Part shown: in pieces, positions 38,702-55,032 of the stretch
Position numbering within the stretch: position 1 is the stretch's first letter
Layout of the letters: the number at the start of each line of letters is the position of its first letter
Assembly: GCA_002698785.1 (NCBI GenBank)
Contig: PAAG01000059.1
Span: forward strand, 1 to 64,000
Length of the DNA: 64,000 nt
Source of the DNA: Verrucomicrobiales bacterium
GTDB lineage: Bacteria > Verrucomicrobiota > Verrucomicrobiia > Verrucomicrobiales > DEV007
Reading direction: 5' to 3'
Made by a program: the position numbers and the translations under genes
Notes under the pieces: generated by a model
What the model saw: only the letters and a program-made list of their open reading frames with translations
What the model was told of the DNA's origin: nothing
The model's database searches: none

Positions 38702-40249
38702 TTAACTTTCTTTACGTAGTTTCTGTATCTCCAAAATTTCAGCTCCCCCCGTTACCCTCACCACTGGATCGTTCTCAGTGAAATATTCCTTTTCGCCTGA
38801 TTCTCCGAGAGAACTTGAGCGAAGTGAAAAACCACACCGCTCGGGTAGTTTTCCCCATCTTGTTTTCGCCTCGAAAATGACCGGAATGAAGCAGTGCAAA
38901 ACTCGCTCCCACTGCTCTCGATCAGACCGTAGGGGCAAACAAAGATGAACAACATCCACGTCGGAAATTTCAAAGGTAACCGGACAGGAATCAGCACTGC
39001 AGCGACTGCCCGATCGACCGGAAACGGCAGCAGGGTGAGCGTTCAGCCGAGCTAGAGACGCAGTAAATCTCTCCCAGAAAATCCTCTCCGAATCGACTCG
39101 CAACAGATCTTGCTGGAGCACTCTCACGAGCCTGTGTGCGTAGCGAATATTAGACCTGGAACCCAGAACTTCTCTCAGCCTCTCCCTGGCGTCAGAAATA
39201 CTCAGTGGGATACCTGCTAACCTGCCCCCGATCAGTGCGAAAACGGTGAAAGCCATCCCGACGATCGGAAAAGCATCACCCTGCAAAATAAACACAGCAA
39301 TACCAAGTGTGCTGAACACAGCGAAGATCGAGTATATCGTCAAGAGAAGTCCCTTTTTGGAAATTCCACTGCTATTTAACTTGTGTAAAAGCGTCCTCTG
39401 ATCTCCGCCTGAAATCGGAAGTCCGGAAAGACTCCGACGAATTAATGTGACGAAGCTTTCGAGGATTGGAAGGCCCAGAATCACCAAGACCACAAGCATA
39501 GGCCCAACAACAGAACCTTTATTAGAAGTCACGAGAGACAGAGATGCGATTAGATTCCCAAGCACAAAAGCACCTCCCCTACCGAGACAAATCCTGGCAG
39601 GCGGCAGATTAAAAAGGAGGAAGGCAGACAACGTCCCAACCAACACAAGGCTCAGAGCTGCTAAGAGAACATTGCCCGTTAGAACACCAATAACTAATAA
39701 GGTTAAACACAGGAACAAGCCGATACCTCCAGCAATTCCGTCCATGCTGTCGAGAAGACCAATCAGATTTGGTAATGCAACAAACCAGAGAATGGTCAGA
39801 ATCAAACCAAACTCTCCCAACTCGAAGGTGTCCCCACTCACAGGATGCGACATGGTGTCGATCCGCATACCGCTGTTGTAGGCACAAATCGCGAGCGCAA
39901 TATGAAGAGCTAGACGGATACTCCCCGGTAGCTTCAGGAGATCGTCAGCAAACCCGATAAGAAAAGCTGCCCCAGCGATAATAAACACCCACTCAGAAAG
40001 AAGAGGGCCACTAATCCCTGCCGACACTGCAAAGTGATGGCAAACAACAAACCCTGCAGCCACCCCCAAAAATATAGGGAGCCCTCCAAATCTAACAACT
40101 GGCAAGGAAATGCCTGAATCTACCCCCGTTCCTTGCCTCCGAATTTCACCCTTCCGAAACCATCCTCGAAGCAGCAACAAGGAAGCAACCCATGAGGCTA
40201 GAAATGCCGCCAGAAGACAACCGCCTCCAATATGGATCAATTCCTTCAT
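38702..40249 (-). CDS. WecA/MraY-like protein lacking catalytic residues, with C-terminal extension
   Basis: A polytopic membrane protein of 515 residues (ATG 40249; a TTG five codons earlier is possible). The first 340 residues follow the undecaprenyl-phosphate sugar-1-phosphate transferase fold, with FADDL (Asp102-Asp103) and LLDSMDGIAGG. The canonical MGDGGA motif reads LGRGGA (Arg224) and the HIHHR loop reads TLLHK (286-290). The paralogue at 45213 keeps both motifs. Transferase activity is therefore doubtful. The cytoplasmic C-terminal extension (about 345-515), rich in Arg, Glu and Leu, is shared only with the paralogue. A regulatory or scaffolding role is inferred. Confidence 0.82.
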   Translation of the reverse strand: MKELIHIGGGCLLAAFLASWVASLLLLRGWFRKGEIRRQGTGVDSGISLPVVRFGGLPIFLGVAAGFVVCHHFAVSAGISGPLLSEWVFIIAGAAFLIGFADDLLKLPGSIRLALHIALAICAYNSGMRIDTMSHPVSGDTFELGEFGLILTILWFVALPNLIGLLDSMDGIAGGIGLFLCLTLLVIGVLTGNVLLAALSLVLVGTLSAFLLFNLPPARICLGRGGAFVLGNLIASLSLVTSNKGSVVGPMLVVLVILGLPILESFVTLIRRSLSGLPISGGDQRTLLHKLNSSGISKKGLLLTIYSIFAVFSTLGIAVFILQGDAFPIVGMAFTVFALIGGRLAGIPLSISDARERLREVLGSRSNIRYAHRLVRVLQQDLLRVDSERIFWERFTASLARLNAHPAAVSGRSGSRCSADSCPVTFEISDVDVVHLCLPLRSDREQWERVLHCFIPVIFEAKTRWGKLPERCGFSLRSSSLGESGEKEYFTENDPVVRVTGGAEILEIQKLRKES

Positions 40250-40276
40250 GATAATCGGAATCAAAAAAGTGAGTTC

Positions 40277-41548
40277 TTACTTAATGAAAATCGGGCGAAA
40301 TCTTACCGCATCCTGCAGTGCAGGATTACCCACGGAAGTCGCGAGCAACCTGATTTGATACCTGGCGCGGCCTCTGTTCTTCTTCCTCAATCGCCTTTTC
40401 GCCTTCCCCTGAAGCTTACTCTCGGTTGAGACCACCACCCGGCTCCTCGGGGGCATCTCCATTTGATAAACTCCCCGTAAGACAGCTCCCGTAATGTTGA
40501 TACGGCCACCAGTCAGCATGAAGACACGAGTCCTCGCAATATTCTTGCTACTCTCGAAACCGCTAAGGTCGATAGTATCCATGAGCCCTCCATCATTCTC
40601 CATCCTCATGTATGCAGACGCCCTTCCCCTGTAATCCAAACGCTCCCTCAGTGCAGTTCCTCCGCCGGGCGTATACACATTATTTCCCTTGTAGCGGCCT
40701 CCACGGGTATCATTGATCGACAAGTCAGGGCGATAATCACCAACCAGAATAAAATCCGCGGAGAAGTTGTCCCAGTAGGCGTCATAAGCGTCTGAACTCT
40801 GATAGATTGGGTCCAGACGGCTGTCATTGTAGTTGTATGCTTGCAACACTGCCTGATCGAACTGAAACGCTCCATTTGAATCGATTCGCCCGACTTCGAG
40901 ATCATTCACGACGTAAATGATTTTTCCGTCACGGAGGAGAATATCGAATCGATACCATTGCCCAACTACCGGCTGAATCACCGTATTTGTCCAAAGACCA
41001 GTGCTCGAATTGAAAAACCGAATAACAGGCGTGCCATCATTATTCGCGATTCCAATGATCGGGATAATGGCGAGCTCCGCTGACTCGTTAGACGCTACCA
41101 CCCAGAGATCTGATCTACGTCGCGTTGTCGCACCTTCCCAATCCGCCGGGAAGTAAATCATAGCCGACACCTGTACCGTCTCAGGATCCAGATCGTATTG
41201 TCGCCCCTGTGTATTGTAGAATCCCTCCGGGTCGTCAGACACAAACTGTGACGGGCGGTCCTGGGCTCCGTCCCCTGGGTCGATCCCGATCCGCAAAACA
41301 TTCTCACCATTTAAGTCGTAGGACTCGAATACGTCCGGGGCATAACGGTCTGGATACCAAACACCAACTCCCTGGGAGACTCCCAGTAGCACAGGATCAT
41401 CGAATGTCTCCACTGTACTGTAAACAATCCCCCCGTTCGAAGTCATCGAGACCAACGAGATTGTCATCAAAGGGAGAAATATGTGTTTTCTCCGGAACTC
41501 TACTAATAGATTCCTCGTTGAACTAAAAATTGATACCTTATGTGTCAT
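40277..41548 (-). CDS. Secreted LamG-like protein with C-terminal LTGGR domain
   Basis: A 423-residue exported protein. The start at 41548 (MTHKVSIFSS) gives a plausible if long signal segment ending near NGGIVYS. The middle (about 45-270) looks like a concanavalin/LamG-type jelly-roll: VETFDDP, NVLRIGIDPGDG, YDLDPETVQVSAMIYFPADW, GQWYRFDILLRDGKIIYVVNDLEVGRI. The last 150 residues, from PDLSINDTRGGRYKGNNVY, contain MENDGGLMDTIDL and RVFMLTGGRINITGAV. They match the C-termini of the proteins at 49606 and 52810. It sits 27 bp upstream of the degenerate WecA-like gene. Possibly a secreted glycan-binding matrix protein. Confidence 0.7.
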   Translation of the reverse strand: MTHKVSIFSSTRNLLVEFRRKHIFLPLMTISLVSMTSNGGIVYSTVETFDDPVLLGVSQGVGVWYPDRYAPDVFESYDLNGENVLRIGIDPGDGAQDRPSQFVSDDPEGFYNTQGRQYDLDPETVQVSAMIYFPADWEGATTRRRSDLWVVASNESAELAIIPIIGIANNDGTPVIRFFNSSTGLWTNTVIQPVVGQWYRFDILLRDGKIIYVVNDLEVGRIDSNGAFQFDQAVLQAYNYNDSRLDPIYQSSDAYDAYWDNFSADFILVGDYRPDLSINDTRGGRYKGNNVYTPGGGTALRERLDYRGRASAYMRMENDGGLMDTIDLSGFESSKNIARTRVFMLTGGRINITGAVLRGVYQMEMPPRSRVVVSTESKLQGKAKRRLRKKNRGRARYQIRLLATSVGNPALQDAVRFRPIFIK

Positions 41549-42381
41549 CATTCGCGCAGCTTCCAACTCCATATTCCAGAGATCGACTAAATACATTGCA
41601 GGTTTGCAACAATTTCGAAGCCGCCCCCTCGCAAGAGTTCTAACTATATTTTTTGAAGAATACTTAGCCCTCCAGCTACCTCCCATATAGCCGCAACTAT
41701 GCCATTCAAAAACAGAAAACGACTATTAAAAACCCAATCCACGCGCAGCCCCCTCATCCACACAATCAACTCTACTTCAACAACTTACATAAACCTCCCC
41801 TTTCCGGAATCCAGTATCTTTTCCGAAAGCATTTCCCGACGGACAAATCTTTTCCCAATTCACCGAACGTCCGTTTTCTAGTAGGCGTTCAAAACTGCGT
41901 TTATATATTTTTTCTCACAATTACAACCATCACCCATATCAAGCCTTCCCTGACCTAAGTGGTCAAATGCTAGCAGAGGCATTTTCGGATAGCCTAAGCA
42001 CAATTTTTTTCTTGGAAGCCTGTCACAGTTGGGGAATCAACTTTTCTGCCAATCCGGTCAAAAGAATTGCCATGTGAGCAGGTGCCATACTAACGATTCC
42101 AAGTCGCCACATCTATTCCCGGTGGTATCCCGTCGTTGTGAGCCATACTGTCCTCGATTACCCTGGCTTCGTTTCTCAGACAGAGAAACACACCAACACA
42201 ACCTCTCCCCTTAGGTCCTAACCGAAATCAAAAATGATGTTGATCAAATTCCTTCACACCGACTCGAACAGACCAGAGGCATAAAGCCGTTCATCAAAAT
42301 CACCCACGTCAAAGGGAGTAGACTCCCCCCTACTAATCTGAGGAATCCGATACCCATCCCAATCCCAAATATCGAGCTGAT
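41549..42381. other. 833-bp intergenic region without a gene
   Basis: This is the longest gap in the minus-strand cluster. I see no credible gene on either strand. It must contain the promoter for the LamG-like gene; an AT-rich stretch at about 41898-41913 (TTTATATATTTTTT on the plus strand) is a candidate -10 region on the minus strand. A 6-bp dyad ACGGAC/GTCCGT lies at about 41839-41874. Nothing more can be supported. Confidence 0.5.
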
Positions 42382-43257
42382 CTAAAAAATACTCTCAGGC
42401 ACGGTTACAGTATCTCCAGGCTGGAGCATAAACGGCTGAGTCTGATCTTTCTGCATCCTGGACACATTTACTTCGTATGTCCGGATCCCTTGCGGGGTGT
42501 TCCTCCGGACAACCACTTTCGAAGGTCTGGCAAGATCTGTGAATCCACCTGCACGCGCGATGGCTCCGATCAAATCTAAAGGAACCTCAGGGTCCATTTC
42601 CAGAGCGCCAGGTGACTTTACTTCACCAATCAGTGTAACGGTTGCCATCTTCTTTTCCTCGACGACGACCTCAGGGATCGCGTGAACGATCAGGGTATCT
42701 CCGTTTTGCATCCGATAGACCCGGTCACTATCAAGGGACAGAAATTGGGTTCGCAAGTCGTCACCAAACCGTCTCTTTAGCTCAATTCGACTTCGATTCC
42801 CTCTTTCAGCAAGACCGCCTGCGGAGGCAATAGCGGTAAAAAGATCAAGGGAACTACCCGCTTTGAAAGTCACTTGCCCCGGAGTTTCGACCTGCCCAAT
42901 CACTGTCACCGCTTGCGGCGGCAGTTCAGATTCCTCAGCTAGAGCAACCACCACCTGCGCATCACGAATGTAATCCTGTTCGAGTTTTGATTCTATATCG
43001 GAAGCAATTTCGGAGGGGTTTCTGCCAACAGCTGCAATGCTTCCAAGGAGAGGAAACACGATCGTCCCATCCGGCCCTACGGAAAAAACACCCGATAGAG
43101 ACGCCTCATCAAAAACATTCACACTCACCGTGTCTCCCGATTTCAGTTCGACATTTCGAACTGCAGGCGCATCGTCGTCTTGCGCCTCTCCCTCAACGAT
43201 CAGTAAAGAGAAAGGGAGCCAGCAAAAAATTACGGTAAAATAAATATTACGAGCCAT
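42382..43257 (-). CDS. Polysaccharide export protein (Wza-like, SLBB domains)
   Basis: Periplasmic or outer-membrane export component of 291 residues from ATG 43257. The signal segment is YFTVIFCWLPFSLLIVEGEAQ. The Poly_export domain follows (LKSGDTVSVNVFDEASLSGVFSVGPDGTIVFPLLG), then two SLBB domains (AVTVIGQVETPGQVTFKAGSSLDLFTAIASAGGL and TVTLIGEVKSPGALEMDPEVPLDLIGAIARAGGF). It ends PFMLQPGDTVTVPESIF. There is no lipobox cysteine and no C-terminal amphipathic helix like that of E. coli Wza, so the pore may depend on another protein such as the beta-barrel at 43807. It partners with the Wzz-kinase. Confidence 0.93.
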   Translation of the reverse strand: MARNIYFTVIFCWLPFSLLIVEGEAQDDDAPAVRNVELKSGDTVSVNVFDEASLSGVFSVGPDGTIVFPLLGSIAAVGRNPSEIASDIESKLEQDYIRDAQVVVALAEESELPPQAVTVIGQVETPGQVTFKAGSSLDLFTAIASAGGLAERGNRSRIELKRRFGDDLRTQFLSLDSDRVYRMQNGDTLIVHAIPEVVVEEKKMATVTLIGEVKSPGALEMDPEVPLDLIGAIARAGGFTDLARPSKVVVRRNTPQGIRTYEVNVSRMQKDQTQPFMLQPGDTVTVPESIF

Positions 43258-43323
43258 AGGATACGACAATCGGTTCAGTAGGAGACCGCTGAGAGAACCC
43301 ATGGACCAGATTGCTGCAACAAT

Positions 43324-43767
43324 CTACGGCGCAAATGGCGATACTTCCCTGCCTCGAACATTCGCCGGGTTCACAAGCGTCAGATTCGAAAACCTTTGAA
43401 TCGTTCCTCCCGTGACAACCGGAATCGCCAGGAACGGTCCATCAATCCCGGCAGCAACTACAAACGGATCGGTTATAACAGTTATGCCGGAAGGAAAGGT
43501 TATCTGAATCTGGTACTCCCCTGGAGGGACTGCACCGAAAGTGTATGACCCGTCTGGACCGCTCGTAACAGTTTCCAACTCCTCTTCTTCAGGAAAAGAG
43601 AAAAGAACGACCTTAGCACCCGGAACGACCTTTTCACCGCCGTCCATGACACCGTTCCCGTTTTCATCCTCGTAGACGACGCCACTAACAACCCCTTCTT
43701 GGGCCAGACCTTGCACAGAAAATAAAACTCCGGCAAATACAGCGAGCAGCACTCTAGAATTCATCAT
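43324..43767 (-). CDS. Secreted SdrD-B-like domain protein, second copy
   Basis: A 147-residue exported protein (MMNSRVLLAVFAGVLFSVQGLAQ as signal). One SdrD_B/Cna_B-type domain carries VVYEDENGNGVMDGGEKVVPGAKVVLF and GAVPPGEYQIQITFPSG. The tail SNLTLVNPANVRGREVSPFAP mirrors the LVNPAN...SPxAP tail of the protein at 38116. It lies between the beta-barrel gene (39 bp) and the Wza-type gene (66 bp), which places it in the export operon. Function not known; a small periplasmic or surface adaptor is possible. Confidence 0.78.
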   Translation of the reverse strand: MMNSRVLLAVFAGVLFSVQGLAQEGVVSGVVYEDENGNGVMDGGEKVVPGAKVVLFSFPEEEELETVTSGPDGSYTFGAVPPGEYQIQITFPSGITVITDPFVVAAGIDGPFLAIPVVTGGTIQRFSNLTLVNPANVRGREVSPFAP

Positions 43768-43806
43768 CACCCGTAAAATTACCATAAAGTCAGTTTCTTA
43801 CCAACA

Positions 43807-45138
43807 TCAATATGTGACGCCCATGCGGACACCCGTAATGTGCTGATCAAATTCGACAAGATTCGAGTTGGAGCTGTTCTCGTTATAATTGTAGAACACG
43901 CTCACGTCTCCTTGCAGATGATCGGTCAACCTGAGAGGGTGCCCGAGATTTACACCGAGACGGAAGTAGTCATCCTCTCGCCCTGACGGTAAACCGCCTA
44001 AACCTGTCTGAAAGTAATCTGCCGTCTCGTATCCAGCTGATGTCGAGAGACTGAAATTCCCCGGCAGTTGGTGAGACATCACAAGAATCACTCCCGTAGA
44101 TCGAAAGTCCTCACCTCCTGTTACATACGAGGGGGACACAGTCCTGTAAGAGTTCAGGTCGAGAGTCGTTTTCGCAGTGGCCGCCCAAGTTACTCCTGTT
44201 CGATAAACGAAGTTATTAGTATCTCTCCCTCCAAGCCCGCTTGTAGAACGGAACTCTTGCCCCACAGAGCTGTACAAATTCGTTTTCCCGGAAAGACGAT
44301 ACCTCCAGCGAAATGACGGAGTCACATACTCCTGATCACCATTCCTGTCGAAATTATCGCTTCCAGCCCTTACCCCGAAACCATAACTTGAGCGAGGTGC
44401 AAACCCGGGGCGATAAAACCACGCAAAATCACCATAGTATCCCGAGCCATCATTCAACAGTGTGCCTGCCTCAAAATCCCTCAAAGAATACCCAGTCCCC
44501 ACCTCAATGCTCCCATGCGGCAATTGCCTGACGACGGACAAATCAAAACCGAAATCATCACTCTCCGCAGCCCTCACCTCTCGGTCGAAGTCCGCAAAAT
44601 CGAGCGAGTTCCCACTGTTATGGAAGTAACTCGTTGCAAAGCGCACCTTTGTCTTAGATCCGTTGACTCCAAAATCAGCACCAAACCTGTGATTCAAATT
44701 ATCCCTGCCAGCCTGAGCTGGAGAATCTTCATAGAAAAACGAACTCCCGGTGTAATTGAATCCATAAAAGGTCCCTCTTCCCGACTCACTGCCTTTGGAG
44801 AAAGTAAACCCAAAATCAGCAACTCCCAGAGATGAGCCTTCCGAATTCGGCAACTGCCTCGTGTTGGAGTCGTACGCATAGGAAAGCCCCAAAAAGACAT
44901 CCACCTGATACTTTGAAACAGGAAGAACCGTTCCTTCGCTTACGTACTTGTCGTCGTAATAGATCGGTGACTTGTCATACACAGGCGCTTTATCACTGGC
45001 GAAGCTAGGCTGCTTAGCGCTCATGCGATAACTCGGCATATCAACCGCCACGTCACCTCCGTCAGCTATTCCCTCGAAGGAAATCGCGGCAAGGCACGGC
45101 AGTGCACAAAAATAAGCACGAAATGAGTTGGCGGTCAT
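43807..45138 (-). CDS. Outer-membrane beta-barrel protein
   Basis: A 443-residue protein with an N-terminal signal (MTANSFRAYFCALPCLAAISFEGIADG) and a long series of alternating amphipathic strands (YQVDVFLGLSYAYDSN, GTFYGFNYTGSSFFYED, TKVRFATSYFHNSG, and so on). It ends HITGVRMGVTY, whose terminal aromatic residue fits the BAM recognition signal. It resembles putative beta-barrel porins found with exosortase/EPS loci. Likely the outer-membrane conduit or anchor of the Wza-type exporter. The family is not named with certainty. Confidence 0.78.
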   Translation of the reverse strand: MTANSFRAYFCALPCLAAISFEGIADGGDVAVDMPSYRMSAKQPSFASDKAPVYDKSPIYYDDKYVSEGTVLPVSKYQVDVFLGLSYAYDSNTRQLPNSEGSSLGVADFGFTFSKGSESGRGTFYGFNYTGSSFFYEDSPAQAGRDNLNHRFGADFGVNGSKTKVRFATSYFHNSGNSLDFADFDREVRAAESDDFGFDLSVVRQLPHGSIEVGTGYSLRDFEAGTLLNDGSGYYGDFAWFYRPGFAPRSSYGFGVRAGSDNFDRNGDQEYVTPSFRWRYRLSGKTNLYSSVGQEFRSTSGLGGRDTNNFVYRTGVTWAATAKTTLDLNSYRTVSPSYVTGGEDFRSTGVILVMSHQLPGNFSLSTSAGYETADYFQTGLGGLPSGREDDYFRLGVNLGHPLRLTDHLQGDVSVFYNYNENSSNSNLVEFDQHITGVRMGVTY

Positions 45139-45212
45139 TGCACAGAACTTGGAAAGGTCGATCTTCTAAGTCGATATGTCAAAATATAGGGCATGCTATT
45201 TTTCTCTTCGAT

Positions 45213-46727
45213 TCATCCATGCGTAAAACCGCATGGATTCATGTCAATTTTGCGATTTAGTTGCTCTTCTAACAACTCAGGACACTGTTCTTTCGGTAGT
45301 TCTTCAATACCAAGATCTTCCGGCAGAGACTCCCACCTCGACAATCCATTCATCAATGCCGGGAGAAAACACCGGATCACTCTGTCCCATTGACGCCTGG
45401 TCGTCTTCTCTTTTGGTTCCGGGCAACACAATTTCCAAACTCTCTCGTTCCGCAGCGGGAAAACGATCAGGCAACGCCCCTCGCCGCATGGTTCACTGTT
45501 TGGGGCCTTGGATGCCGGTGAAATATCCAACCTCAGCAAAGATTCCCGAACACGCCCCCAGTATTCCTCAGCGCTGGCGGACCTCTCGATATCATGTTCG
45601 AGGACCTGAGAAAGGTTATAGGCGTAGCGAATATCTTTCCTTGCAGCCACAATGTCGCCGAGGGCTTCCCGAACCTGGCGAACGCTGTGCGGAAGCCCGA
45701 TGGAACGAAACCCGAGGAAAACTCCCACCGTGACAACCATTCCCACCACGGGAAGCGTGTATCCGGATGTTACAAAAACACTGAGCCCCAGCAGGCAAAG
45801 TCCTGCAAAGACCCCATAAAGGACAAGAAGGATCGTTCTCTTCGAAAATCCCAGAGTCATCAAGCGGTGATGAATGTGCCGTGCGTCAGGTGCCATAATC
45901 GGCAACCCCGAAATCGCCCGGCGACACATGGCGAAAAGAGTATCCAGAATGGGAAAGCCCAAAGCAATTACTACAACAAGGAGAGCTCCGAACATCGACC
46001 CCTTATTTGATGTCACCAGCGATGATCCGGCGATAAAATACCCAAGCAGATAGGCCCCACCATCACCCATATAAACCCTGGCTGGTGGCAAATTAAAACA
46101 GAGAAAAGCGACCACGCCTGCCGCGATAGAGGCCCCAAACAAAAGCAGCGCCAAATCACCGGTCATTCCTCCAAGAACTGCCAGCGTCGCACTGAGAAAA
46201 AGAACCACACCACCGGCAAGACCATCCAATCCATCAACGAGATTGACCAGATTGGGGATCGCAACAAACCACAATACGGTGACAATCAAAGAGAACCCAC
46301 CGACATCAATACTCCCCTCGCCAATCGGATTTGAGATGATCCCGATTCGCATCCCCGCCAGATAGGCAGCGACCCCGATTGCAATCTGCACAGCAAGCTT
46401 AATGGCGCCAGACAAACCAAACAAGTCGTCTGTAAATCCCAGAAGAAAGATCAGCGTTCCCAGGATAAGAAAGGGAATTCCAGCGAGCTCGCTATCAGCC
46501 TCACCTGTGAAAAACGACGAGATCAACCAGCCAGCCAAAAATGCTATGTAGAGTGCGATTCCTCCTACTCGGATGACTGGGGCTTCTTGATGCTTTCTAA
46601 CTCCATCAGGATGATCAACCCCCGTCGAGAACTTCCAAAACCGGCACAGGCAGATGAGCACTGCGAAGGTGAGCAAGAATGCCCCTCCAATCGCTGCAAT
46701 TAGCTCTGTAGTAATGCCCCCCATCAC
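45213..46727 (-). CDS. WecA/MraY-like undecaprenyl-phosphate sugar-1-phosphate transferase with C-terminal extension
   Basis: Starts glycan synthesis by moving a sugar-1-phosphate (often GlcNAc-1-P) from UDP-sugar to undecaprenyl phosphate. The 504-residue protein has about 11 membrane segments and all family motifs: FTDDL (Asp100-Asp101), NLVNLVDGLDGLAGG (Asp165, Asp168), YMGDGGAYLLG (Asp222) and HIHHR (284-288). Beyond residue 340 lies an extension of about 165 residues, with RQWDRVIRCFLPALMNGLSRWESLPEDLGI, shared with the degenerate paralogue at 38702 and absent from ordinary WecA. No other priming transferase is visible in the window, so this is the best candidate initiator. Confidence 0.92.
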   Translation of the reverse strand: MMGGITTELIAAIGGAFLLTFAVLICLCRFWKFSTGVDHPDGVRKHQEAPVIRVGGIALYIAFLAGWLISSFFTGEADSELAGIPFLILGTLIFLLGFTDDLFGLSGAIKLAVQIAIGVAAYLAGMRIGIISNPIGEGSIDVGGFSLIVTVLWFVAIPNLVNLVDGLDGLAGGVVLFLSATLAVLGGMTGDLALLLFGASIAAGVVAFLCFNLPPARVYMGDGGAYLLGYFIAGSSLVTSNKGSMFGALLVVVIALGFPILDTLFAMCRRAISGLPIMAPDARHIHHRLMTLGFSKRTILLVLYGVFAGLCLLGLSVFVTSGYTLPVVGMVVTVGVFLGFRSIGLPHSVRQVREALGDIVAARKDIRYAYNLSQVLEHDIERSASAEEYWGRVRESLLRLDISPASKAPNSEPCGEGRCLIVFPLRNERVWKLCCPEPKEKTTRRQWDRVIRCFLPALMNGLSRWESLPEDLGIEELPKEQCPELLEEQLNRKIDMNPCGFTHG

Positions 46728-47065
46728 GTAAGTCTTCTCTCAGTCGGATATTTTTAGAAAAATTCCCAGCACTTGGGAGCACCATTTATGCCACCAGCGC
46801 ACATATATCAGGCCCAAGAAGTAAGTATTCTTTATCTCATGTATCTATGTTTCCACAACTTGTTTTTCATTACAGAGTTGTCAGGAAAGGAATGGGCACG
46901 TTCTTTTAAAAACCCAGAAGAGAAAGAAAAAATTTCTCAACCCTCTCCAGCCCAGACCCATCGCACTATGCTCAGGTGACCACCGAAATCTCGTTCCAGA
47001 CCGCCAAAGATTATCTCGGAAAACGACTTTCTTCACACCATCCAATTTTCCCAAATCTCCCCTTT
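46728..47065. other. 338-bp intergenic region
   Basis: Lies between the 3' end of the PAS-AraC gene and the start of the WecA-like gene. It should hold the promoter of the minus-strand export operon. A small dyad TCCCA/TGGGA is at about 46767-46781, and an AT-rich TTTTTAGAAAAATT at about 46749-46763. No gene is supported. Confidence 0.45.
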
Positions 47066-47914
47066 TCATAGTTTGGTGCCACTTCCATTGCATTCCCGGT
47101 ATGATCTCGGCGTCAGACCCGTAGATTTTCGAAACCATGCTGTAAAAGAACTCTGATCTCCAAAGCCGAGATCGAGAGCAATCTCAACAATCGGCACCAC
47201 ACCCTGCCGCAGTCGCCTGCACGCATTGTCGAGCTTGATCGTCGACAGAAATCGCTGCGGTGTTGTGTTGAACTCTTTCTGAAACAACCGCCCCAGCTGC
47301 CTGGTCGAAACGTGAACTTCCTCCGCGATGTGCTCATTCTCGAGTTCCCTGTCTGTGTTTTGAAACATCCAGTGTATCGCCCTGTCGAGCCTCTCATCCT
47401 GTCCGCAATTCGCCAGTATCGCAGCGTTCTCGCTGAATCTGCAGATTGTCCGCACCAGCCCACATACTCCGACCACTGCTCCGGCTTCGTCATTCACGGC
47501 AAACTTACTCACTCGTACCCATTCCACCCCGGCTCGAAGCAGAAGGTGCCACCGAGGGTGGGCGTGGATGGCTTTTCGCCGCTCACGAACTTCCTTTTCT
47601 TCTCGGATATGACTCTCGGCCTGAAGCGGTGCATAAAAGTCGTAGTCCCTTGAAAGAATAAAATTCGACGAATCATCTGCGCCGAGTTTTTCTCTGAAAC
47701 ACGGTGTTCCAAACATGTAGCGGGATCTGGAGTCTTTCAGAAAAATGGAGACATCATCCATCAGGCTCAGGACTTCCAATACATGATTCAGGTTCGGAAT
47801 TTGACTAATGAAGTCTTCCGCATCCACTTGCTTCGACGCATTTCGAATGTCTTCGAGCAATAGTTTCGCGATGAGGTCTCCGTTCTCATCTTCGTTCTGT
47901 AAACTTCTGCTCAT
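47066..47914 (-). CDS. AraC-family regulator with N-terminal PAS-like domain
   Basis: A transcription factor of 282 residues (ATG 47914; an ATG 11 codons earlier is possible). The N-terminal PAS-type sensor (about 50-160) reads VSIFLKDSRSRYMFGT...SRDYDFYAPLQAE...WVRVSKFAVNDEAGAVVGVCGLV. The C-terminal AraC DNA-binding domain has two helix-turn-helix units (EEVHVSTRQLGRLFQKEF and ALDLGFGDQSSFTAWFRKSTGLTPRSYR). It lies upstream of the export operon on the same strand and may control it. Ligand unknown. It forms a pair with the regulator at 48311. Confidence 0.9.
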   Translation of the reverse strand: MSRSLQNEDENGDLIAKLLLEDIRNASKQVDAEDFISQIPNLNHVLEVLSLMDDVSIFLKDSRSRYMFGTPCFREKLGADDSSNFILSRDYDFYAPLQAESHIREEKEVRERRKAIHAHPRWHLLLRAGVEWVRVSKFAVNDEAGAVVGVCGLVRTICRFSENAAILANCGQDERLDRAIHWMFQNTDRELENEHIAEEVHVSTRQLGRLFQKEFNTTPQRFLSTIKLDNACRRLRQGVVPIVEIALDLGFGDQSSFTAWFRKSTGLTPRSYRECNGSGTKL

Positions 47915-48310
47915 CAGGTATTTGCCAACAATAAAGGTAAATTGCATCCCTCCTGTGCGGACATCGCCACGGTTAGTGACACGCCACCACAGAATAGAGA
48001 ATTTTCTCCAGTCTCCTATTTTATACGTAATTGTGGAACGATGGGTCCTCCTCTTGCCGAGAGCCCCCTCCAGAACTCCCTCAGGAATCGAACGAAATCA
48101 CCACTCTATGTAGAAAACAAAATTGCTCCCACAGAGGTATTACCCTTCTATTGTCTCAGGTTATTGTTCAGGGCAGACATAAATCTTTTCTAGATTTGTT
48201 CTGCATGACCAAAAACTCGAAAAAATGGCAGTGGTTCTTAGCTAAACCGAAATCACAAAGTTCCATTGGTAGGTGATTCGTTCAGCACCATGACCTGTAA
48301 AGAATACCAC
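47915..48310. other. 396-bp intergenic region between two regulators
   Basis: No gene is supported on either strand. It should carry the promoter for the regulator at 47066. I found no strong dyad or -35/-10 pair. Confidence 0.4.
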
Positions 48311-49135
48311 TCAGTTCTGAACACCAGCTACCTGGTGCCTTCGCTCTTCCCAGTTTTTTCGTAACTCCATGGGCGTCACACCAGTGGCTTTCCCAAAACG
48401 CACACAAAACGCACTGGCACTCTGAAATCCAAAACGCTCTGCGATATTGCCGATCTGGTCATTTGATAATAGGAGTTCCCTAGCAATACTCTGAAAACGA
48501 ACCCGTTCCACAAACTTCGCAACACTCATCTCGAAGAGACTGTTCACCACTTTTGTAATCTTCCCTTCACTTACCCCGATACGCTTGGAAAGGTCTCTCA
48601 CAGTGAGACGTTTCGAGAGGTTCTCCTGCACGATTGCCACGATTTGGAAGGAAAGAGAGTCTAAAGTCCCACGGAATTTCATCGGTAAACTCGTCTCGCT
48701 GCCTTGAAATTGCCGAATCACGCCCACCAGACCAATGACATCTCCTTGCCGGTCAGCGACGGGAAACTTCGTTGTTTGAACAAGACGGGCCGAAGAGGCC
48801 AACGGAGAGAAGAGCTCGAACTGATCCTTCATCACCACATTCTCGCGGACTACCCTCTGGTCGTCTTTCAAATACTCGTCAGCAACCGAGGGTAAAACGA
48901 AGTCATAGTCATTTTTCCCAAACACATCTGCAGAATTGAGACATCCGAGCCGTAATTGTAAACCCGGCGAGACCGCAACATAGTTGCTCTCCCTGGTCTT
49001 CACGAAGAACTCGACCTGAGGCACAGACGTGAGAAGGTTCACCACCATCTCAAGCCGCCCGTCGTGCAGGAAATCACGTTGCCGCGCCTTCTTCTCGCCT
49101 GCCGTTAATGGTCCGTTGCCTCCAAACTTATCCAT
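48311..49135 (-). CDS. AraC-family regulator with N-terminal PAS-like domain, second copy
   Basis: A 274-residue regulator with the same plan as the one at 47066. The PAS-like domain (about 35-150) has VEFFVKTRESNYVAVSPGLQLRLG, FGKNDYDFVLPSVADEY and VADRQGDVIGLVGVIRQF. The AraC domain has VRDLSKRIGVSEGKITKVVNSLFEMS and IAERFGFQSASAFCVRFGKATGVTPMELRK. The shared K/R-DYDF motif in both PAS domains suggests related signals. It is divergent from the secreted-protein gene at 49606. Target genes are inferred only from position. Confidence 0.9.
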   Translation of the reverse strand: MDKFGGNGPLTAGEKKARQRDFLHDGRLEMVVNLLTSVPQVEFFVKTRESNYVAVSPGLQLRLGCLNSADVFGKNDYDFVLPSVADEYLKDDQRVVRENVVMKDQFELFSPLASSARLVQTTKFPVADRQGDVIGLVGVIRQFQGSETSLPMKFRGTLDSLSFQIVAIVQENLSKRLTVRDLSKRIGVSEGKITKVVNSLFEMSVAKFVERVRFQSIARELLLSNDQIGNIAERFGFQSASAFCVRFGKATGVTPMELRKNWEERRHQVAGVQN

Positions 49136-49605
49136 TTTCCAGGGGTATCACCTCTCCCTCTATTTTCATGACATCTTTTTTCACATAATAGGTAATTTCG
49201 CTCATCTGAGGTATCGCCTTTGTTCATGGGATGAGCACTCAATTCGATTTGGCTGAACTACTCAGAAAAAAATATTTGACTTTTTGTTTTCAGTAAATCC
49301 ACCGGACGAGATTCTAAATTTCCCGAGTCATAAGCATTCACTTTTCGGAGCCCTACAATAGGCCGAAATTCCGTATTCAACCATTGTATTACAGAGCATT
49401 ACACACAAGACACAATCAATGAACAACCCTTCTGAAAATTACAGATGGAGGCTTCATAAGCTCGGCATCATCACCCTTCTTTTCTGCGGTTCGAGACCAA
49501 AAACGCCCGCTGTGTCCTGCATAAAAATTACCCCGCTGCGTCCTTTTTTGCGAAGGCTGCTGATGTGGAATTGGTCGGCGTCTCGAACCCAAACATTCTC
49601 GCACA
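49136..49605. other. 470-bp divergent intergenic region
   Basis: Separates the second PAS-AraC gene (minus) from the secreted repeat protein (plus), so it should contain two divergent promoters and perhaps the regulator's own binding sites. A short open frame from 49419 overlaps the next gene and is not convincing. No clear motif was found. Confidence 0.45.
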
Positions 49606-51318
49606 ATGAACTTCTCAAGAAAGATTCGAATCGGTCTCGCCGCCATCATCCTTGTAGCAGGTTTCGCGAACGATACCGCAGTAGCAACAGAGGATACACT
49701 GGTTGCGCTCGGATACGTTACCCGGCACGCTCCAAGACACAGGGTTGTTAATGCGACCGACGGATTCCTGAATATTACCGAAGGGAGCCATGGGCAGTAT
49801 TACATCAACATCGAATCCTTCGGCGAATTCACCACGGCATCGCCAAACGATTTTGTCATTGAAGTGGGGAACAACTACACTGGCTCGAATGACAAGATAG
49901 CTGTCGCTCATGTCTCCTATCTCGATCCGAACCGTCTCACAGTCGCAGTCTCGCTCTCCGATACGGAAGATACCATTGATCCCCACCTCGCTGCCTCGAG
50001 TAGTCACGATTTCTACTTTGTCATCCGTCGCTTACCCGGGAATGGGATAGGATCGACCACGGGTTCGCCCCATGCCGGATACAATCCCGGCCATACCGTT
50101 CCCCGTCCCCCTCGCCGGCCATCTGATGACCGCATTTCCGGCGATACAAAATACCTTGCCGCGTTTGGGAAAATCAATTCAGATGGCAGCCTCGCCAGCG
50201 GCTTCGGAGTCAATGGCTTGGAAATCACCACGTCACGAAACACGCTGGGTGAATACGAATTGATCCTGCAGCAGAACGATTCCTTCGCTACTGACACGAG
50301 CGCTGACTACCTCATCTTTGTCACTCCCATGGTGCAGGGGACTAATGATGTAATCGGCTCTGGAACCTGTTCCGACACTTCCAGCGACAACGAGGCTGTT
50401 TTCCTCTTTCACACCGACGACGCTCAGAATGGGAATAGCACCGACTTTCCCAACGGCAAGGATATCGACTTCTGCTTTCAGATTTACCGTATGGATCCCA
50501 GTCTTTCGGAACATCCTGCACGAAGCCGCCTCATCAAAGCAATCGCCACATTTCACTCAAACGGAGCACTCACTTCAGGAGCCACAGCCTACAAGAACGG
50601 AACCATCCAGGTCGTCCACGAAGCATACGGCGCATTCAAAGTCGTAGTCCATGCCCCGGGAGAATTTGCCGGGCGCTATGCGAATGAGTTCATAGTTGGT
50701 GCATCACTGAATCAGGACGCAACTTCCGATCACGAACCGAACGCACTGGTCAACATCATCGACGCCAACACGCTCGAAGTCGAAATATTCGTCAACGACC
50801 TCGAATACGGGGACGAAACGAATGGCGTCGCCGCCAACTCACCCGTTTACTTTCTTCTCTTCGATTCCCAGCCCGAAACACGCCCGGACATGAAAATCGG
50901 CAACAAGAAAAGGGCTGCAAAAATGCGGGGAAATGACGTCTACAATCAGACCGGAGCAGGTCAGACGGCCAAATTGAAAAGCAAAGGCAAAAGAAAAACC
51001 GGTAAGCTTTTTCTCGAAGTCGAGAACGACGGGGACATCGCAGACAACATTCGCCTGATCGAGCAAGGCTCCGGTTCTGGCTTTAAGGTGAAACTTTTCC
51101 AACTCACAGGAGGAAGAAAGAACATCACAGCTCAAGTGAAAGGGCATGGCATTATCGCCGGTGATCTCCTCCCCGGGCGTCGGATACAAATAGAAGCACG
51201 CATTTCCGCCCGGAAGAAATCTAAGTCGAAGCGAGCAAAGGTAAAATTTACCGGCATGTCCTCATCTTCCCCGGGTGCTGCAGACACAGCACGAGCCAAA
51301 TTAAAGATAAGGAGCTGA
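49606..51318 (+). CDS. Secreted triple-repeat protein with C-terminal LTGGR domain
   Basis: A 570-residue exported protein (signal MNFSRKIRIGLAAIILVAGFANDTAVA). Three related units of about 115-130 residues follow (from about 30, 185 and 305). Each begins near an LxALGxV / LAAFGKI / IKAIATF strand and ends in a (F/Y)F(V/L)(I/L) strand, with inner Y-I-N-I/Y-E-L-I/F-K-V-V and acidic loops. The last 150 residues (PDMKIGNKK...GNDVYNQTGAGQ...VENDGDIADNIRL...KVKLFQLTGGRKNITAQV) match the ends of the proteins at 40277 and 52810. The tail is very basic. I recognise no enzyme motif; a secreted adhesin or matrix role is inference. Confidence 0.75.
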   Translation: MNFSRKIRIGLAAIILVAGFANDTAVATEDTLVALGYVTRHAPRHRVVNATDGFLNITEGSHGQYYINIESFGEFTTASPNDFVIEVGNNYTGSNDKIAVAHVSYLDPNRLTVAVSLSDTEDTIDPHLAASSSHDFYFVIRRLPGNGIGSTTGSPHAGYNPGHTVPRPPRRPSDDRISGDTKYLAAFGKINSDGSLASGFGVNGLEITTSRNTLGEYELILQQNDSFATDTSADYLIFVTPMVQGTNDVIGSGTCSDTSSDNEAVFLFHTDDAQNGNSTDFPNGKDIDFCFQIYRMDPSLSEHPARSRLIKAIATFHSNGALTSGATAYKNGTIQVVHEAYGAFKVVVHAPGEFAGRYANEFIVGASLNQDATSDHEPNALVNIIDANTLEVEIFVNDLEYGDETNGVAANSPVYFLLFDSQPETRPDMKIGNKKRAAKMRGNDVYNQTGAGQTAKLKSKGKRKTGKLFLEVENDGDIADNIRLIEQGSGSGFKVKLFQLTGGRKNITAQVKGHGIIAGDLLPGRRIQIEARISARKKSKSKRAKVKFTGMSSSSPGAADTARAKLKIRS

Positions 51319-51412
51319 AAAGAAGGTATTGGAACCACCCAGAACACACTCAATACCAACTATCATTTCTCTTTTCCAAGGCACACAACTCCGCGCTCCG
51401 CGATTGAATTAA

Positions 51413-51442
51413 TTGACAATACCAAAGCTCAACTGATTGTAT
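51413..51442 (+). promoter_or_regulatory. Weak sigma-70-like promoter candidate upstream of the ECF gene
   Basis: A perfect TTGACA (51413-51418) is followed after 18 bp by TTGTAT, a poor -10 match. It lies about 50 bp upstream of the chosen ECF start. The position is plausible and the match is weak. Confidence 0.25.
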
Positions 51443-51493
51443 CTCATCAAGGGCCGGAGACCACGAAAGGGAATCGGTCTTCCCTGTGCCCCA

Positions 51494-52051
51494 ATGAGTA
51501 ACGAAGAATCTGAAGATCCGGAAAACCCCTCAAAGTCCGATCAAACGGTAATCCGTCTCGTCTCAAAGTATCACACCCACCTTTTTCGTTACATACTCAC
51601 GCTTGTCCCCAATGATTCTGACGCCAACGACATTCTACAGGAAACCTGTGTAGACTTAGTACGCCGAGCGGAAGAATACGATGTAAATAAGGAGTTTCTT
51701 CCTTGGGCTTACCGATTTGCCTACATCGAGGTCTTGAATTTTCGAAAGCGCCAGGGAAGATCGAAATTGATCTTCGACAACGACGTTCTCGAACTCCTTG
51801 CTTCAGATCCGGAAGAAAGCGAAGACCCTGGCATCAACACACAGATTGACGCACTGGAGGAGTGCATCGATTCCCTCCCACCACAGGATCGCGAATTGGT
51901 CGAAGTTCGTTATTTCCAGCCCGAAGCGTTCAAAGATATCCTGCCCGATCTGGGAATGAGCAGGAGAACTGTATTCCGACAGCTTTCTCGCATTCGCCAA
52001 GTCCTTCTTGATTGTATCAACACCCGCCTGGCCAGAGATTCAGATTCGTGA
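51494..52051 (+). CDS. ECF sigma-70 factor (Rhodopirellula/Verrucomicrobium type)
   Basis: RNA polymerase sigma factor of 185 residues from ATG 51494. Region 2 is seen in YHTHLFRYILTLVPNDSDANDILQETCVDLVRRAEEYDVNKEFLPWAYRFAYIEVLNFRKRQGR. Region 4 is seen in CIDSLPPQDRELVEVRYFQPEAFKDILPDLGMSRRTVFRQLSRIRQVLLDCI. Spacing and motifs match the family typical of Verrucomicrobiota and Planctomycetota. Relatives are often paired with an FecR-like anti-sigma factor, but none follows here; the next gene is convergent 5 bp away. Regulon unknown. Confidence 0.92.
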   Translation: MSNEESEDPENPSKSDQTVIRLVSKYHTHLFRYILTLVPNDSDANDILQETCVDLVRRAEEYDVNKEFLPWAYRFAYIEVLNFRKRQGRSKLIFDNDVLELLASDPEESEDPGINTQIDALEECIDSLPPQDRELVEVRYFQPEAFKDILPDLGMSRRTVFRQLSRIRQVLLDCINTRLARDSDS

Positions 52052-52056
52052 TTCGA

Positions 52057-52740
52057 CTACGAACGTGTGACCAGCTCAGTGGTAAAGGGGCTCAACGCGG
52101 CAACCGTGCAGGCAGCATTCTTATGAGACAGATCCACCGCCTGGATATGGGCGGACGGCTCCACTGGAGCGACACACTCTCTGGGATACTCACCGGCGAA
52201 GAGAATCTCGATCCTCTTGGGTTCGAGTCGAAAACCCTCGCCAGTCGCTTTCATTCGGGCTTCCTTCGCAGTCCAGGTCCAGAAGAACGCTCTTACTTTA
52301 TCATCCCCTCCGAGCGACTGCATTCGTTTGATCTCTGATTCTCGGAAGCAACGATTGCCTAAGCCATCGATATCCACCTCCCTGCTGAAAAGCTCCACAT
52401 CTACCCCAATGGATGGAACCCGAGACACGGCAACCACAGCGAGGTCCTCAGAGTGGGAAAGGTTGAAATGCACCTCACCATCGGGCAAATACGGCTTTCC
52501 CATCTCATCGATCAAAAGAGGCACTTCGTTCGGCGAGCACCCTAGGCACTCGCCCAGAACCGTCCGCAGCTTTCCTCGAGAACGAACATACCGCTCCCGA
52601 TGCACATCAAAGCGAAAGCTCTGGGCCCTATCGTTTTCCTCTTGGTTCAAACACGGCAACGCATCTCCAAGACGGATATCAGAATCGTCCCCGATGGAGA
52701 ATGCATACACTTTTACAAGATTCGACTCGCCCGGCAGCAT
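52057..52740 (-). CDS. 4'-phosphopantetheinyl transferase (Sfp type)
   Basis: Attaches the phosphopantetheine arm of CoA to a serine of carrier proteins. The 227-residue two-lobe protein has the N-terminal SFRFDVHRERYVRSRGKLR and LPDGEVHFNLSHSEDLAVVAVS blocks. The metal site is GVDVE (Asp114, Glu116), and the C-terminal FFWTWTAKEARMKATGEGF contains the W-x-x-KEA signature (Lys159-Glu160). Size and pseudo-twofold layout match Sfp, not AcpS. No polyketide or peptide synthetase lies in the window, so its target is elsewhere. Confidence 0.93.
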   Translation of the reverse strand: MLPGESNLVKVYAFSIGDDSDIRLGDALPCLNQEENDRAQSFRFDVHRERYVRSRGKLRTVLGECLGCSPNEVPLLIDEMGKPYLPDGEVHFNLSHSEDLAVVAVSRVPSIGVDVELFSREVDIDGLGNRCFRESEIKRMQSLGGDDKVRAFFWTWTAKEARMKATGEGFRLEPKRIEILFAGEYPRECVAPVEPSAHIQAVDLSHKNAACTVAALSPFTTELVTRS

Positions 52741-52809
52741 GATAACAAGAAACAGAGCTACGTTACGACTGATGCCGCCGCTCGTCTAATCTCCTGATTC
52801 GTAGCAAAC

Positions 52810-55032
52810 TCAGCGCTTAGACTGCTTCACTTTCGCTTTCACTCCGTCCACGGAAGAAGCACTCACACTTCGTCCCTGGAAAGTAAGGTTCTGGCGTGCC
52901 CGCCGTTTTGATGACCGAGCTTTGGCTTGTACTTGAAAAACCACTGTCCCGCCCGGAGCCACAGCGCCCAGTGAATACCCAGATCTCATAGCACCGGTCA
53001 CGTTTACTCGGCCACCAGTCAGGCGAAAGGTTTTCAGCTTAAGAGTCTTGTTCGCCCTCGGACCGGACAAGATAAGCTGGTCTTCGATTGCTCCGTCGTT
53101 CTGGAGAGAAAAATGGAACTTACTTTTACGGCGCCCCGCCAACTTCACCCGCAATACCTGTCCCGCGCCGGAGGCTGAGTAAAAATTATCGACCTTCTGC
53201 GCGGCGGGATTCGACTTCTTCCCGATTTTCGCATCGACCTGTATCCCTACCTCAACGGCTCCCAAATCTGGTGCACCATTCTTCGGCCGACTTTCTCCTC
53301 TCTGGTCGGTCAGCAGCGGGTTGGAAATCGTTCCCCCTCCATCAATCAAAGGGCTCAGCGCCTGTGGAATCAATGTGCGAGTAAATCCCCCATTGTCCTC
53401 AAATGGTCCCAGCACGGGATTACCACTGGTGAGGTTGTTCCCTTCACTCGTAAAAAAGCTTCCTACATTAGCATTCGAATCGGCAATATTCGAAGCAACC
53501 ACACAGTTGGCGAGCGTCAGCCCTGCAGGCAGACTGGTCCAGATTCCCCCACCTTCTGCTTCGAACCCGTCTTCACCGTCAGTACCCAGATCACCTCCGC
53601 CCGGATTTCCTCCAGTGTTGCTTATGATCGTGAGATGGGAAAGAAGCGCTGTGTAATTCACATTAATCAAATCGAGTCCGATACCCCCTCCGCTGCCAGC
53701 GTCGCCACCGATTCCACCCGTGTTAGGCCCACTACCGATCCCTCCTCCGCCACCGTTCCCGGCTGAGTTCTGGTAGAAGGTCGAATTTTCGACAGTTAGC
53801 ACCGGGCTACCCGACGAGGAAAGTGATGTCGCAAAGACTCCTCCTCCGGACCCACCGAAACCGCCATCAGTCCCATCTCCGCTTACACTACCTTCGGCCG
53901 TACCGCCTATAGCGCCATTTCCCGCCGTATTCGCATAGAAAAGGCATCTCTCTACTTCCGCGCCACCTGACAAAGCCTGAATCGAGAGAAACATTCCACC
54001 GCCTTGTCCGCCATCTCCCCCTTTTCCTTGAACATCGGCAGATACCATCGAGACGCGCCCGCCGGCTCCGCCATTTCCAGCATAATTCGCAACAAACTCA
54101 CAATCCTGCACGACCGGGTCAATCTCAATAACGGCTAGACCGCCACCATCACCGCCCTCTCCACCAGTCTGTCCAGTGCCATCGTCCCCATCATATCCTC
54201 CGATTCCTCCACTGCCTGCTTCATTGCCATCCAAGACAGAACGAATCAGGGTCAATTCTCCACGAATACAGTAGATTCCACCACCGCTTCCGCCTTTTCC
54301 GCCCACATTCGCATTTCCTGTGCGTCCTGACGCGACACCACCGCCCGTTCCTCCGTCTCCCGCATAGTTCACCGTAACAAGGCTATCTATCAAAGTTAGT
54401 GAGGCATCCTCGCCGTCGCTGTAGATACCACCACCAAGTCCACCGATACCACCAACGCCCGCAAACCCGGAATCAGCATCCAGCTCACCGGCTGCTCCCC
54501 CATCGCCGGCCCGGTTAAACACCACTTCACAACTGTCGACCGTGAGAATGCCCAGATTGTAAATCCCACCACCGTTGCCGCCATCTCCCCCATCATCACC
54601 GGTCGCCCCATCCATTCCGTTGAGGCCATGAGGCGCGCGCCCTCCAGTGATCACGAGATTGATCAGCTCAAGCTCAGCATTCAGACTCACTTCGAAGACT
54701 CGCTGCCTACTCCCAGTGTCTCCCAGTAAAACAATACCATCCACCAGCGCGCTCGCATCGATAGTGGTCTTGTGCGAGACCTCCGTGATTTGCAGCGCTC
54801 CGCCAGTCAGTTCGATTTCCCCGTCGTTTAAAGCTGCCGCGAATGTGATGGTATCCGGCTCATCATTAGAGTTCGCGATGTCAATCGCCTCGCGCAAAGT
54901 CACTCCACCAGAACCGTCGTCTTCCGCACTCGTGACCTCAATATTCGCAGCGTGACTAAAGGATCCCGTTGCCAGCAGAAAAGCTAGGCAGAACCAGACA
55001 GAAGACAATCCAGACGAGCGTCGAAATTTCAT
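52810..55032 (-). CDS. Secreted Gly-rich beta-helix protein with choice-of-anchor Q motif and C-terminal LTGGR domain
   Basis: A 740-residue exported protein (signal to about SFSHA, residue 29). After an N-terminal pectate-lyase-like cap (VTLREAIDIANSNDEPDTITFA), about nine repeats of 40-60 residues follow. Each has a Gly-rich loop (GGDGGNGGGIY, GGIGGLGGGIY, GGKGGSGGGIY) then a beta-helix rung. The PLIDGGGTISNPLLTDQRGESRPKNGAPDLGAVEV block matches the choice-of-anchor Q region. The last 150 residues (AQKVDNFYSASGAGQ...LQNDGAIEDQLIL...LKTFRLTGGRVNVTGAM) match the proteins at 40277 and 49606 and end very basic. Likely a surface or extracellular structural protein. Confidence 0.82.
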   Translation of the reverse strand: MKFRRSSGLSSVWFCLAFLLATGSFSHAANIEVTSAEDDGSGGVTLREAIDIANSNDEPDTITFAAALNDGEIELTGGALQITEVSHKTTIDASALVDGIVLLGDTGSRQRVFEVSLNAELELINLVITGGRAPHGLNGMDGATGDDGGDGGNGGGIYNLGILTVDSCEVVFNRAGDGGAAGELDADSGFAGVGGIGGLGGGIYSDGEDASLTLIDSLVTVNYAGDGGTGGGVASGRTGNANVGGKGGSGGGIYCIRGELTLIRSVLDGNEAGSGGIGGYDGDDGTGQTGGEGGDGGGLAVIEIDPVVQDCEFVANYAGNGGAGGRVSMVSADVQGKGGDGGQGGGMFLSIQALSGGAEVERCLFYANTAGNGAIGGTAEGSVSGDGTDGGFGGSGGGVFATSLSSSGSPVLTVENSTFYQNSAGNGGGGGIGSGPNTGGIGGDAGSGGGIGLDLINVNYTALLSHLTIISNTGGNPGGGDLGTDGEDGFEAEGGGIWTSLPAGLTLANCVVASNIADSNANVGSFFTSEGNNLTSGNPVLGPFEDNGGFTRTLIPQALSPLIDGGGTISNPLLTDQRGESRPKNGAPDLGAVEVGIQVDAKIGKKSNPAAQKVDNFYSASGAGQVLRVKLAGRRKSKFHFSLQNDGAIEDQLILSGPRANKTLKLKTFRLTGGRVNVTGAMRSGYSLGAVAPGGTVVFQVQAKARSSKRRARQNLTFQGRSVSASSVDGVKAKVKQSKR

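Follow-up and report, generated by a model that had tools for sequence, protein, structure and literature searches.

Three proteins encoded in a 64,000-nucleotide stretch of a Verrucomicrobiales bacterium genome (NCBI GenBank assembly GCA_002698785.1, contig PAAG01000059.1, positions 1 to 64,000; below, the window) end in the same strongly basic, immunoglobulin (Ig)-like domain, which closes 61 proteins of this genome. We propose, with a probability of about one half, that this C-terminal domain is a non-covalent anchor whose charge holds proteins to an anionic polymer in the cell envelope or matrix. The window features concerned are as follows.

40277-41686, minus strand: predicted exported protein 1, with a probable signal peptide (start codon uncertain), a body without a known family and the C-terminal domain.
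40280-40750, minus strand: basic Ig-like C-terminal domain of protein 1 (BLASTP pairs, alignment, profile).
49606-51318, plus strand: predicted exported protein 2, with a signal peptide, a body without a known family and the C-terminal domain.
50863-51315, plus strand: basic Ig-like C-terminal domain of protein 2 (BLASTP, alignment, profile; AlphaFold2 predicted local distance difference test score, pLDDT, 94.7).
52810-55032, minus strand: predicted exported protein 3, with a signal peptide, a Gly-rich repeat body, a choice-of-anchor Q domain and the C-terminal domain.
52816-53259, minus strand: basic Ig-like C-terminal domain of protein 3 (BLASTP pairs, alignment, profile).
53248-53421, minus strand: choice-of-anchor Q domain (NF041518) of protein 3, immediately preceding the basic C-terminal domain (E 8.2e-15 in the protein scan, E 1.0e-15 in the genome search).
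33459-34343, plus strand: exosortase (PF09721, E 1.1e-37), a neighbour beside polysaccharide genes that we judge to stand outside the system.

The three open reading frames (ORFs) lie where a sequence-only reading of the window had placed them, and the proteins share homology over their last ~150 residues (pairwise BLASTP E 3e-11, 9e-16 and 3e-13); of the 163 columns in an alignment of the C-termini, 24 are invariant. Outside this region, pairwise BLASTP similarity between the proteins is at chance level throughout. At E≤1, none of the three proteins has a match in Pfam, and the sole NCBIfam match is choice-of-anchor Q in protein 3; the body of the protein at 40277, described earlier as LamG-like, matches neither database at E≤1 and the label is unconfirmed. 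The list of shared motifs was borne out in part: the homology behind it holds, but the exact string LTGGR-x-N-[VI]-T is present in merely 11 of the 61 members, and the ‘IG’ and ‘GxGQ’ features are not found in protein 1, which reads SI-ND and GGGT at these places. The wider signature of the 61 members has PD..IG.K near the start and a late D, together with G.N.YN..G.GQ, NDG....D and N[VI]T. When the genome of the window was searched with a degenerate DNA pattern encoding F-x-[LF]-T-G-G-[RS]-x-N, 10 matches were obtained, vs 0 in a reversed control.

The extent of the family was determined by profile search. A profile of the three sequences matched 60 places in the same genome at E≤1, and local iteration on the surroundings of these matches gave 61 ORFs, every one with a single copy of the domain. 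The proposed C-terminal position was observed in all 61, with 0-31 residues separating the end of the domain from the stop codon (≤5 residues in 49). Nine members extend 10-31 residues beyond the domain, and the residues that follow it, where present, are often runs of lysine and arginine. The proteins were also expected to bear signal peptides, and a lenient, uncalibrated heuristic classed 57 of 59 ORFs as signal-like, the two ORFs that are open at the N-terminus having been excluded.

Likewise, the claim of one domain on unrelated bodies was upheld, the 61 members spanning many body families. Among the best 25 of 64 and the best 25 of 51 matching families (NCBI matches taken by E, without curated cut-offs) are NHL propellers or repeats, β-helices, FG-GAP repeats, Ig-like repeats, cytochrome c peroxidase types and the M36 metallopeptidase. 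NHL repeats occur in 11 bodies; choice-of-anchor Q was detected in 9 at the threshold of the body scan and in 10 by genome search. The PEP-CTERM ScyF family matches 10 bodies, probably through their NHL repeats, the M36 family dependent on the type IX secretion system (T9SS) matches one body (E 1.4e-197), and the rhombosortase-dependent M36 family matches one. The names of these NCBI families (choice-of-anchor Q, PEP-CTERM, T9SS, rhombosortase) refer to other C-terminal signals, which we count in favour of an anchoring role. Some bodies are related to each other, for example those of four paralogues on contig 46. At that locus (L094, positions 57000-76500), the four paralogues of ~910-930 residues with a basic Ig-like end are interleaved with genes that end in a helical hairpin.

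Screening of the 61 domains themselves against Pfam returned 16 families at E≤0.1, the best at 0.0039 and none in more than two members. NCBIfam returned 10 families at the same threshold, with StpA (0.00041, one member) and choice_anch_T (0.0058, three members) the best. We take these matches to be chance and no model to fit the domain convincingly. In an open-access literature search, judged largely from the search results, no paper on such a domain was recognised.

The domain is also strongly basic. From the start of the domain to the stop codon, the net charge is positive in all 61 members (+7 to +29, median +21), and the bodies are net negative in all 61 (median -7.8 per 100 residues). 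Basic positions are spread across the domain and are densest at residues 105-123 of the modelled domain, which include the loop between strands 107-116 and 124-133. For comparison, a 464-kb sample of contig 2 of the same genome has 105 ORFs of ≥200 residues that were classed as secreted, and the charge of their last 50 residues has a median of -1. Seven of them reach +8 or more, four of which carry the Ig-like domain and one the helical module described below, leaving two others. In a 400-kb sample of a genome that lacks the domain (G012), 0/76 secreted ORFs reach +8.

The fold was predicted with AlphaFold2 from the 61-sequence alignment for the domain of protein 2, one of the three in the window, and the model (pLDDT 94.7) has nine strands and one helix of at least four residues. 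Comparison with solved structures, using Foldseek and VIA-align, identified an Ig-like β-sandwich, consistent with the Ig-like module that the sequence-only reading had entertained. The neighbours in the Protein Data Bank include integrins and GH123-type enzymes, among others, with VIA-align Z values up to 10.7 and Foldseek E values down to 1.9e-7; the fold is alike and the identity is 3-16% in the rows shown. A sequence search of solved structures gave a best E of 0.58. The Ig-like sandwich is a common fold that names no function.

Within the genus, the domain is present in 15 of 33 genomes, with 62, 62, 45, 40, 39, 35, 28, 27, 8, 8, 6, 3, 3, 2 and 1 copies, and its distribution is patchy. 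In a tree of a single gene, a secretin, covering the 30 of 33 genomes that hold the marker (G020 sits on a very long branch and is probably represented by another paralogue), the distribution of the domain takes about 8 changes to explain, supported branches forcing no fewer than 4, and 56/500 shuffles are as low. The three-sequence profile found the domain in 0/13 genomes from other families of the order, and in a phylum-wide sample, with ≤10 candidates scored per genome, it was found in 2/387 genomes, the genome of the window being one of them. A scan of named genomes yielded 4 loci from 19 stretches, all of Verrucomicrobiales or Verrucomicrobiia metagenome-assembled genomes; its pattern includes LTGGR and reaches close relatives only. 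On plasmids, a tblastn search with two members gave no match. The secretin of the type II secretion system was uninformative, GspD-like secretins being present in 33/33 genomes and none above the family cut-off.

NCBI gave choice-of-anchor domains their name because different C-terminal anchors follow them. In the genome of the window, choice-of-anchor Q occurs in 15 ORFs (16 matches), and a basic module stands at the end of 15/15: the Ig-like domain in 10, a helical module in 3 and a second basic module in 2. The helical module comprises ~55 residues, is rich in lysine and arginine, and is predicted to form a two-helix hairpin (pLDDT 86, helices 13-38 and 42-61). The second module comprises ~95 residues and is called β from a reading of its sequence only. 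Comparison of the Ig-like domain profile with the helical and second modules by hhalign indicated no relation (probability 0.7% and 0.1%, respectively).

At the loci inspected across the genus, both modules are predominantly C-terminal. The helical module was found at 73 places in 9/33 genomes and is C-terminal, ≤8 residues from the stop, in 28 of 30 loci inspected; of the remaining loci, L244 runs off its contig and L240 is a wrongly chosen ORF. The second module was found at 17 places in 8/33 genomes and is C-terminal (within 13 residues) in 17/17. The end charges of both are +11 to +27, with L240 excluded. Furthermore, the modules co-occur with the domain: one or the other is present in 9/10 well-assembled domain-positive genomes vs 1/13 domain-negative genomes (Fisher p 1e-4, an optimistic value, as are the Fisher values generally, the genomes that share modules being related), and in 10/15 vs 1/18 over all 33 genomes. 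The second module alone is present in 7/10 vs 0/13 well-assembled genomes. In the genome of the window, 7 of 21 helical-module places (including C39, which was missed at E≤0.01, added by hand and confirmed separately) lie ≤5 kb from a domain gene, with 7% expected, and the p value of 4e-4 is likewise optimistic owing to tandem gene families.

Choice-of-anchor Q itself is present in 16/33 congeneric genomes. One end was readable among the six domain-negative genomes that possess it, that of a G022 protein, and is acidic (-12); the other fetched choice-of-anchor Q proteins of these genomes run off their stretch. In domain-negative G004, G007, G418 and G421 (L154, L156, L150 and L155), choice-of-anchor Q lies mostly in giant frames of ~3,400 to >18,000 residues, and in G421 additionally in frames of 503 and 1,905 residues. 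Separately, some choice-of-anchor Q proteins of other genomes (at L282, L285 and L295) have mildly basic Ig-like C-termini that by reading resemble the choice-of-anchor D type, and may represent a further end module.

These results are consistent with the following model. The protein would be exported through Sec, as signal peptides route such proteins, and its acidic body would act outside the cytoplasm. The basic C-terminal domain would then retain the protein non-covalently on an anionic polymer, which may be capsular polysaccharide, exopolysaccharide or lipopolysaccharide. At least two other basic modules (the two-helix hairpin and the second, probably β, module) occupy the same C-terminal slot in the genus. 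As modules without detectable relation are all strongly positive, retention by charge on an anionic polymer is likelier than recognition by one protein receptor, and the working principle would be positive charge and not one fold or peptide motif. A paralogous end region, carried by signal-peptide proteins with unrelated bodies, is what is generally expected of a C-terminal sorting or anchoring domain, and such a region is found here. The sequence-only reading had suggested a sorting or anchoring domain or an Ig-like module; the form of the domain fits both descriptions, and the sorting or anchoring role is one that we infer.

A wider form of the proposal, which we advance tentatively and regard as possible but somewhat doubtful, is a display code independent of fold, in which at least three modules without detectable relation are interchangeable and an anionic surface polymer reads charge alone. 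Such a code, if true, would need no enzyme, lipid or transmembrane anchor. A precedent for the mechanism is BT0996-C, a C-terminal β-sandwich with a broad lysine-rich surface, for which electrostatic binding of an anionic polysaccharide, polygalacturonate, is reported (PMC9843283). BT0996-C differs from the present domain in being a proposed binder of its substrate polymer and not an anchor, in resembling families 6/35 of the carbohydrate-binding modules, and in belonging to one protein, vs a genome-wide family here.

Several observations weigh against anchoring by charge, in addition to the relatedness of the module-sharing genomes. Without trailing residues, the charge of the domain itself lies between 0 and +29 (median +20), and 3/61 fall below +10. 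The charge of the two alternative modules is partly there by construction, since basicity drew attention to them; their position, co-occurrence and clustering are not. G012, which lacks the domain, has a single helical-module protein and its body is neutral, and several choice-of-anchor Q proteins of other genomes have mildly basic ends of other kinds (last 60 residues +7 to +10: G001 C513, G015 C74 twice, G015 C77 and G008 C22). In four long members (L070, L084, L085 and L092) the N-terminal segment is possibly an uncleaved anchor, in which case the basic end would stay in the periplasm. In a 297-kb sample of domain-rich G422, 0/68 secreted ORFs reach +8, the one domain gene in the sample having been classed as cytoplasmic through a start-codon choice that missed its signal. 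Moreover, since 6/117 ORFs classed as cytoplasmic in the contig 2 sample likewise reach +8, there is nothing special in a basic end by itself. The special feature is the basic end on an acidic exported body, unlike the exported proteins of this genome in general.

The chief rival explanation, to which we allow a real but minor chance, is that the domain is the signal for a dedicated, T9SS-like outer-membrane machine that reads the folded domain, exports the protein and maybe cleaves the domain off. Lineage-specific C-terminal homology domains on signal-peptide proteins whose bodies are unrelated have earlier pointed to sorting systems (PMC3237569), and the copy number of the present domain, which ranges among congeners from 0 (18/33) to 62, is in keeping with such a system, as is the one member body that matches T9SS-dependent M36. 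The T9SS signals are likewise C-terminal β structures on many signal-peptide proteins with unrelated bodies, with a conserved basic residue in the last motif (PMC11969387). In one species they measure 40-51 or 69-82 residues and have at most seven strands (PMC11969387), vs ~150 residues and nine strands here. Unlike the T9SS signal, the present domain is basic over most of its length, and the 10 NCBIfam families matched by any of the 61 domains at E≤0.1 include no T9SS sorting-domain model. A slot shared by modules without detectable relation would hardly be readable by one receptor, and the nine members that run 10-31 residues beyond the domain also argue against recognition of this kind. SprA_N (PF14349), sought as a marker of the T9SS translocon (SprA/Sov), matched 0/33 genomes, the control genomes being likewise silent.

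We consider it improbable that the domain is an ordinary Ig-like module, serving as spacer, in adhesion or in outward polysaccharide binding, that has spread by duplication at C-termini without any sorting or anchoring role. The common sandwich fold speaks for this explanation, as does a relative in G407, a genome of another family of the phylum. There, a weak match (E 5.7e-6) with a charge of -2 lies inside an ORF whose fetched part exceeds 5,000 residues, and this one internal, uncharged case lends weak support to the earlier remark on distant relatives elsewhere. However, in 61 proteins of the genome of the window the domain is never internal and never repeated, it is basic where the internal relative is not, and other basic modules replace it on the same body type. 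The neutral internal relative suggests that the basic C-terminal form is derived, an ordinary Ig-like module having been recruited.

It is very unlikely that the basic ends bind nucleic acid, extracellular or cytoplasmic, or their own proteins' acidic bodies in an ionic protein matrix; the basic end and acidic body in 61/61 members would suit such a matrix, but nothing in the analysis favours nucleic acid and the signal peptides speak against a cytoplasmic role.

The exosortase had been counted by the sequence-only reading as part of the cluster at 40277-55032, and it actually lies outside this range. Its start at 33459 is near the first domain at 40280, and 2/2 exosortases in the genome of the window lie ≤10 kb from a domain gene (p 0.016; 0/2 at ≤5 kb), which counts for a tie between the two and against our proposal. 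Across the 33 genomes, however, no association was found: exosortase (PF09721) is present in 10/15 domain-positive vs 8/18 domain-negative genomes (Fisher p 0.30, and 0.20 over the 23 well-assembled genomes). It is absent from 5/15 domain-positive genomes, three of which are <90% complete; the solid exosortase-free cases are G422 (39 copies, 93% complete) and G020 (8 copies, 96%). Nor did any of the 61 members show a transmembrane stretch, defined as a 19-residue hydropathy above 1.6, in the last 120 residues (largest mean 1.29). The second exosortase of the genome adjoins a 664-residue protein with a C-terminal hydrophobic stretch and basic cluster of its own. Such a locus, with an adjoining protein of ~665 residues, was seen in G000 and in G001 (L338:7378-10676, minus strand; L339:15634-17637, plus strand, by the exosortase match at 17703-18422); exosortase and protein look like a dedicated one-to-one pair. 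We reject exosortase as the partner of the domain on the genome distribution, and with this distribution, the lack of a hydrophobic helix in any member and the separate partner of the second exosortase set against proximity, it is hardly credible that the domain is the substrate tag of its neighbour.

The comparison extends to the known C-terminal signals of exported proteins. The domain resembles PEP-CTERM in being a homologous C-terminal region shared by exported proteins whose bodies vary and include ScyF-like ones, and differs in having neither a transmembrane helix nor co-occurrence with exosortase. PEP-CTERM has no match in the genome of the window at E≤0.1, and TIGR02595 is not among the matches of the 61 domains at that threshold. 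The possibility that PEP-CTERM is distributed as a mirror image of the domain was rejected (Spearman -0.06 over 23 genomes), with a PEP-CTERM match (E≤0.1) in 18/33 genomes; the domain-rich G000, G005 and G419 are without one. The GlyGly-CTERM/rhombosortase system is similar as a suffix on secreted enzymes, and one body here matches rhombosortase-dependent M36, but the architecture of motif, helix and basic cluster is not seen and 61/61 members are without a transmembrane stretch. By the features tested, the domain is not a PEP-CTERM, GlyGly-CTERM or T9SS signal.

A C-terminal anchoring or sorting domain is in itself of a known kind; new are the strongly basic globular form and its exchange with a helical hairpin. 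To our knowledge, little is known of how large exported proteins are retained at the surface in Gram-negative bacteria outside the well-studied phyla. The family, with up to ~60 copies per genome and without a convincing Pfam or NCBIfam match, marks a set of exported proteins as candidates for the surface. If charge alone anchors them, the principle of display would be a simple one, and C-terminal sorting need not imply a sortase or a dedicated secretion machine.

The neighbouring genes of the window provide some further observations. A pair consisting of a small SdrD_B-domain protein and an MraY/WecA-like transferase, the latter identified by reading, is present twice on the minus strand, at 38116-40264 and 43324-46727. 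The transferase copy at 45213-46727 reads GDGGAY, a position that we take to be the catalytic motif, and the copy at 38702-40264 reads GRGGAF there, so that the motif may be lost in this copy. Two adjacent genes, which by reading encode AraC-like regulators with a sensor region at the N-terminus, lie on the minus strand (47066-47947 and 48311-49135) between polysaccharide export genes and protein 2. A sigma-70-family factor of extracytoplasmic-function size (Pfam regions 2 and 4; 51437-52051, plus strand) directly follows protein 2, and a putative phosphopantetheinyl transferase, again by reading (52057-52740, minus strand), lies between the sigma factor and protein 3.

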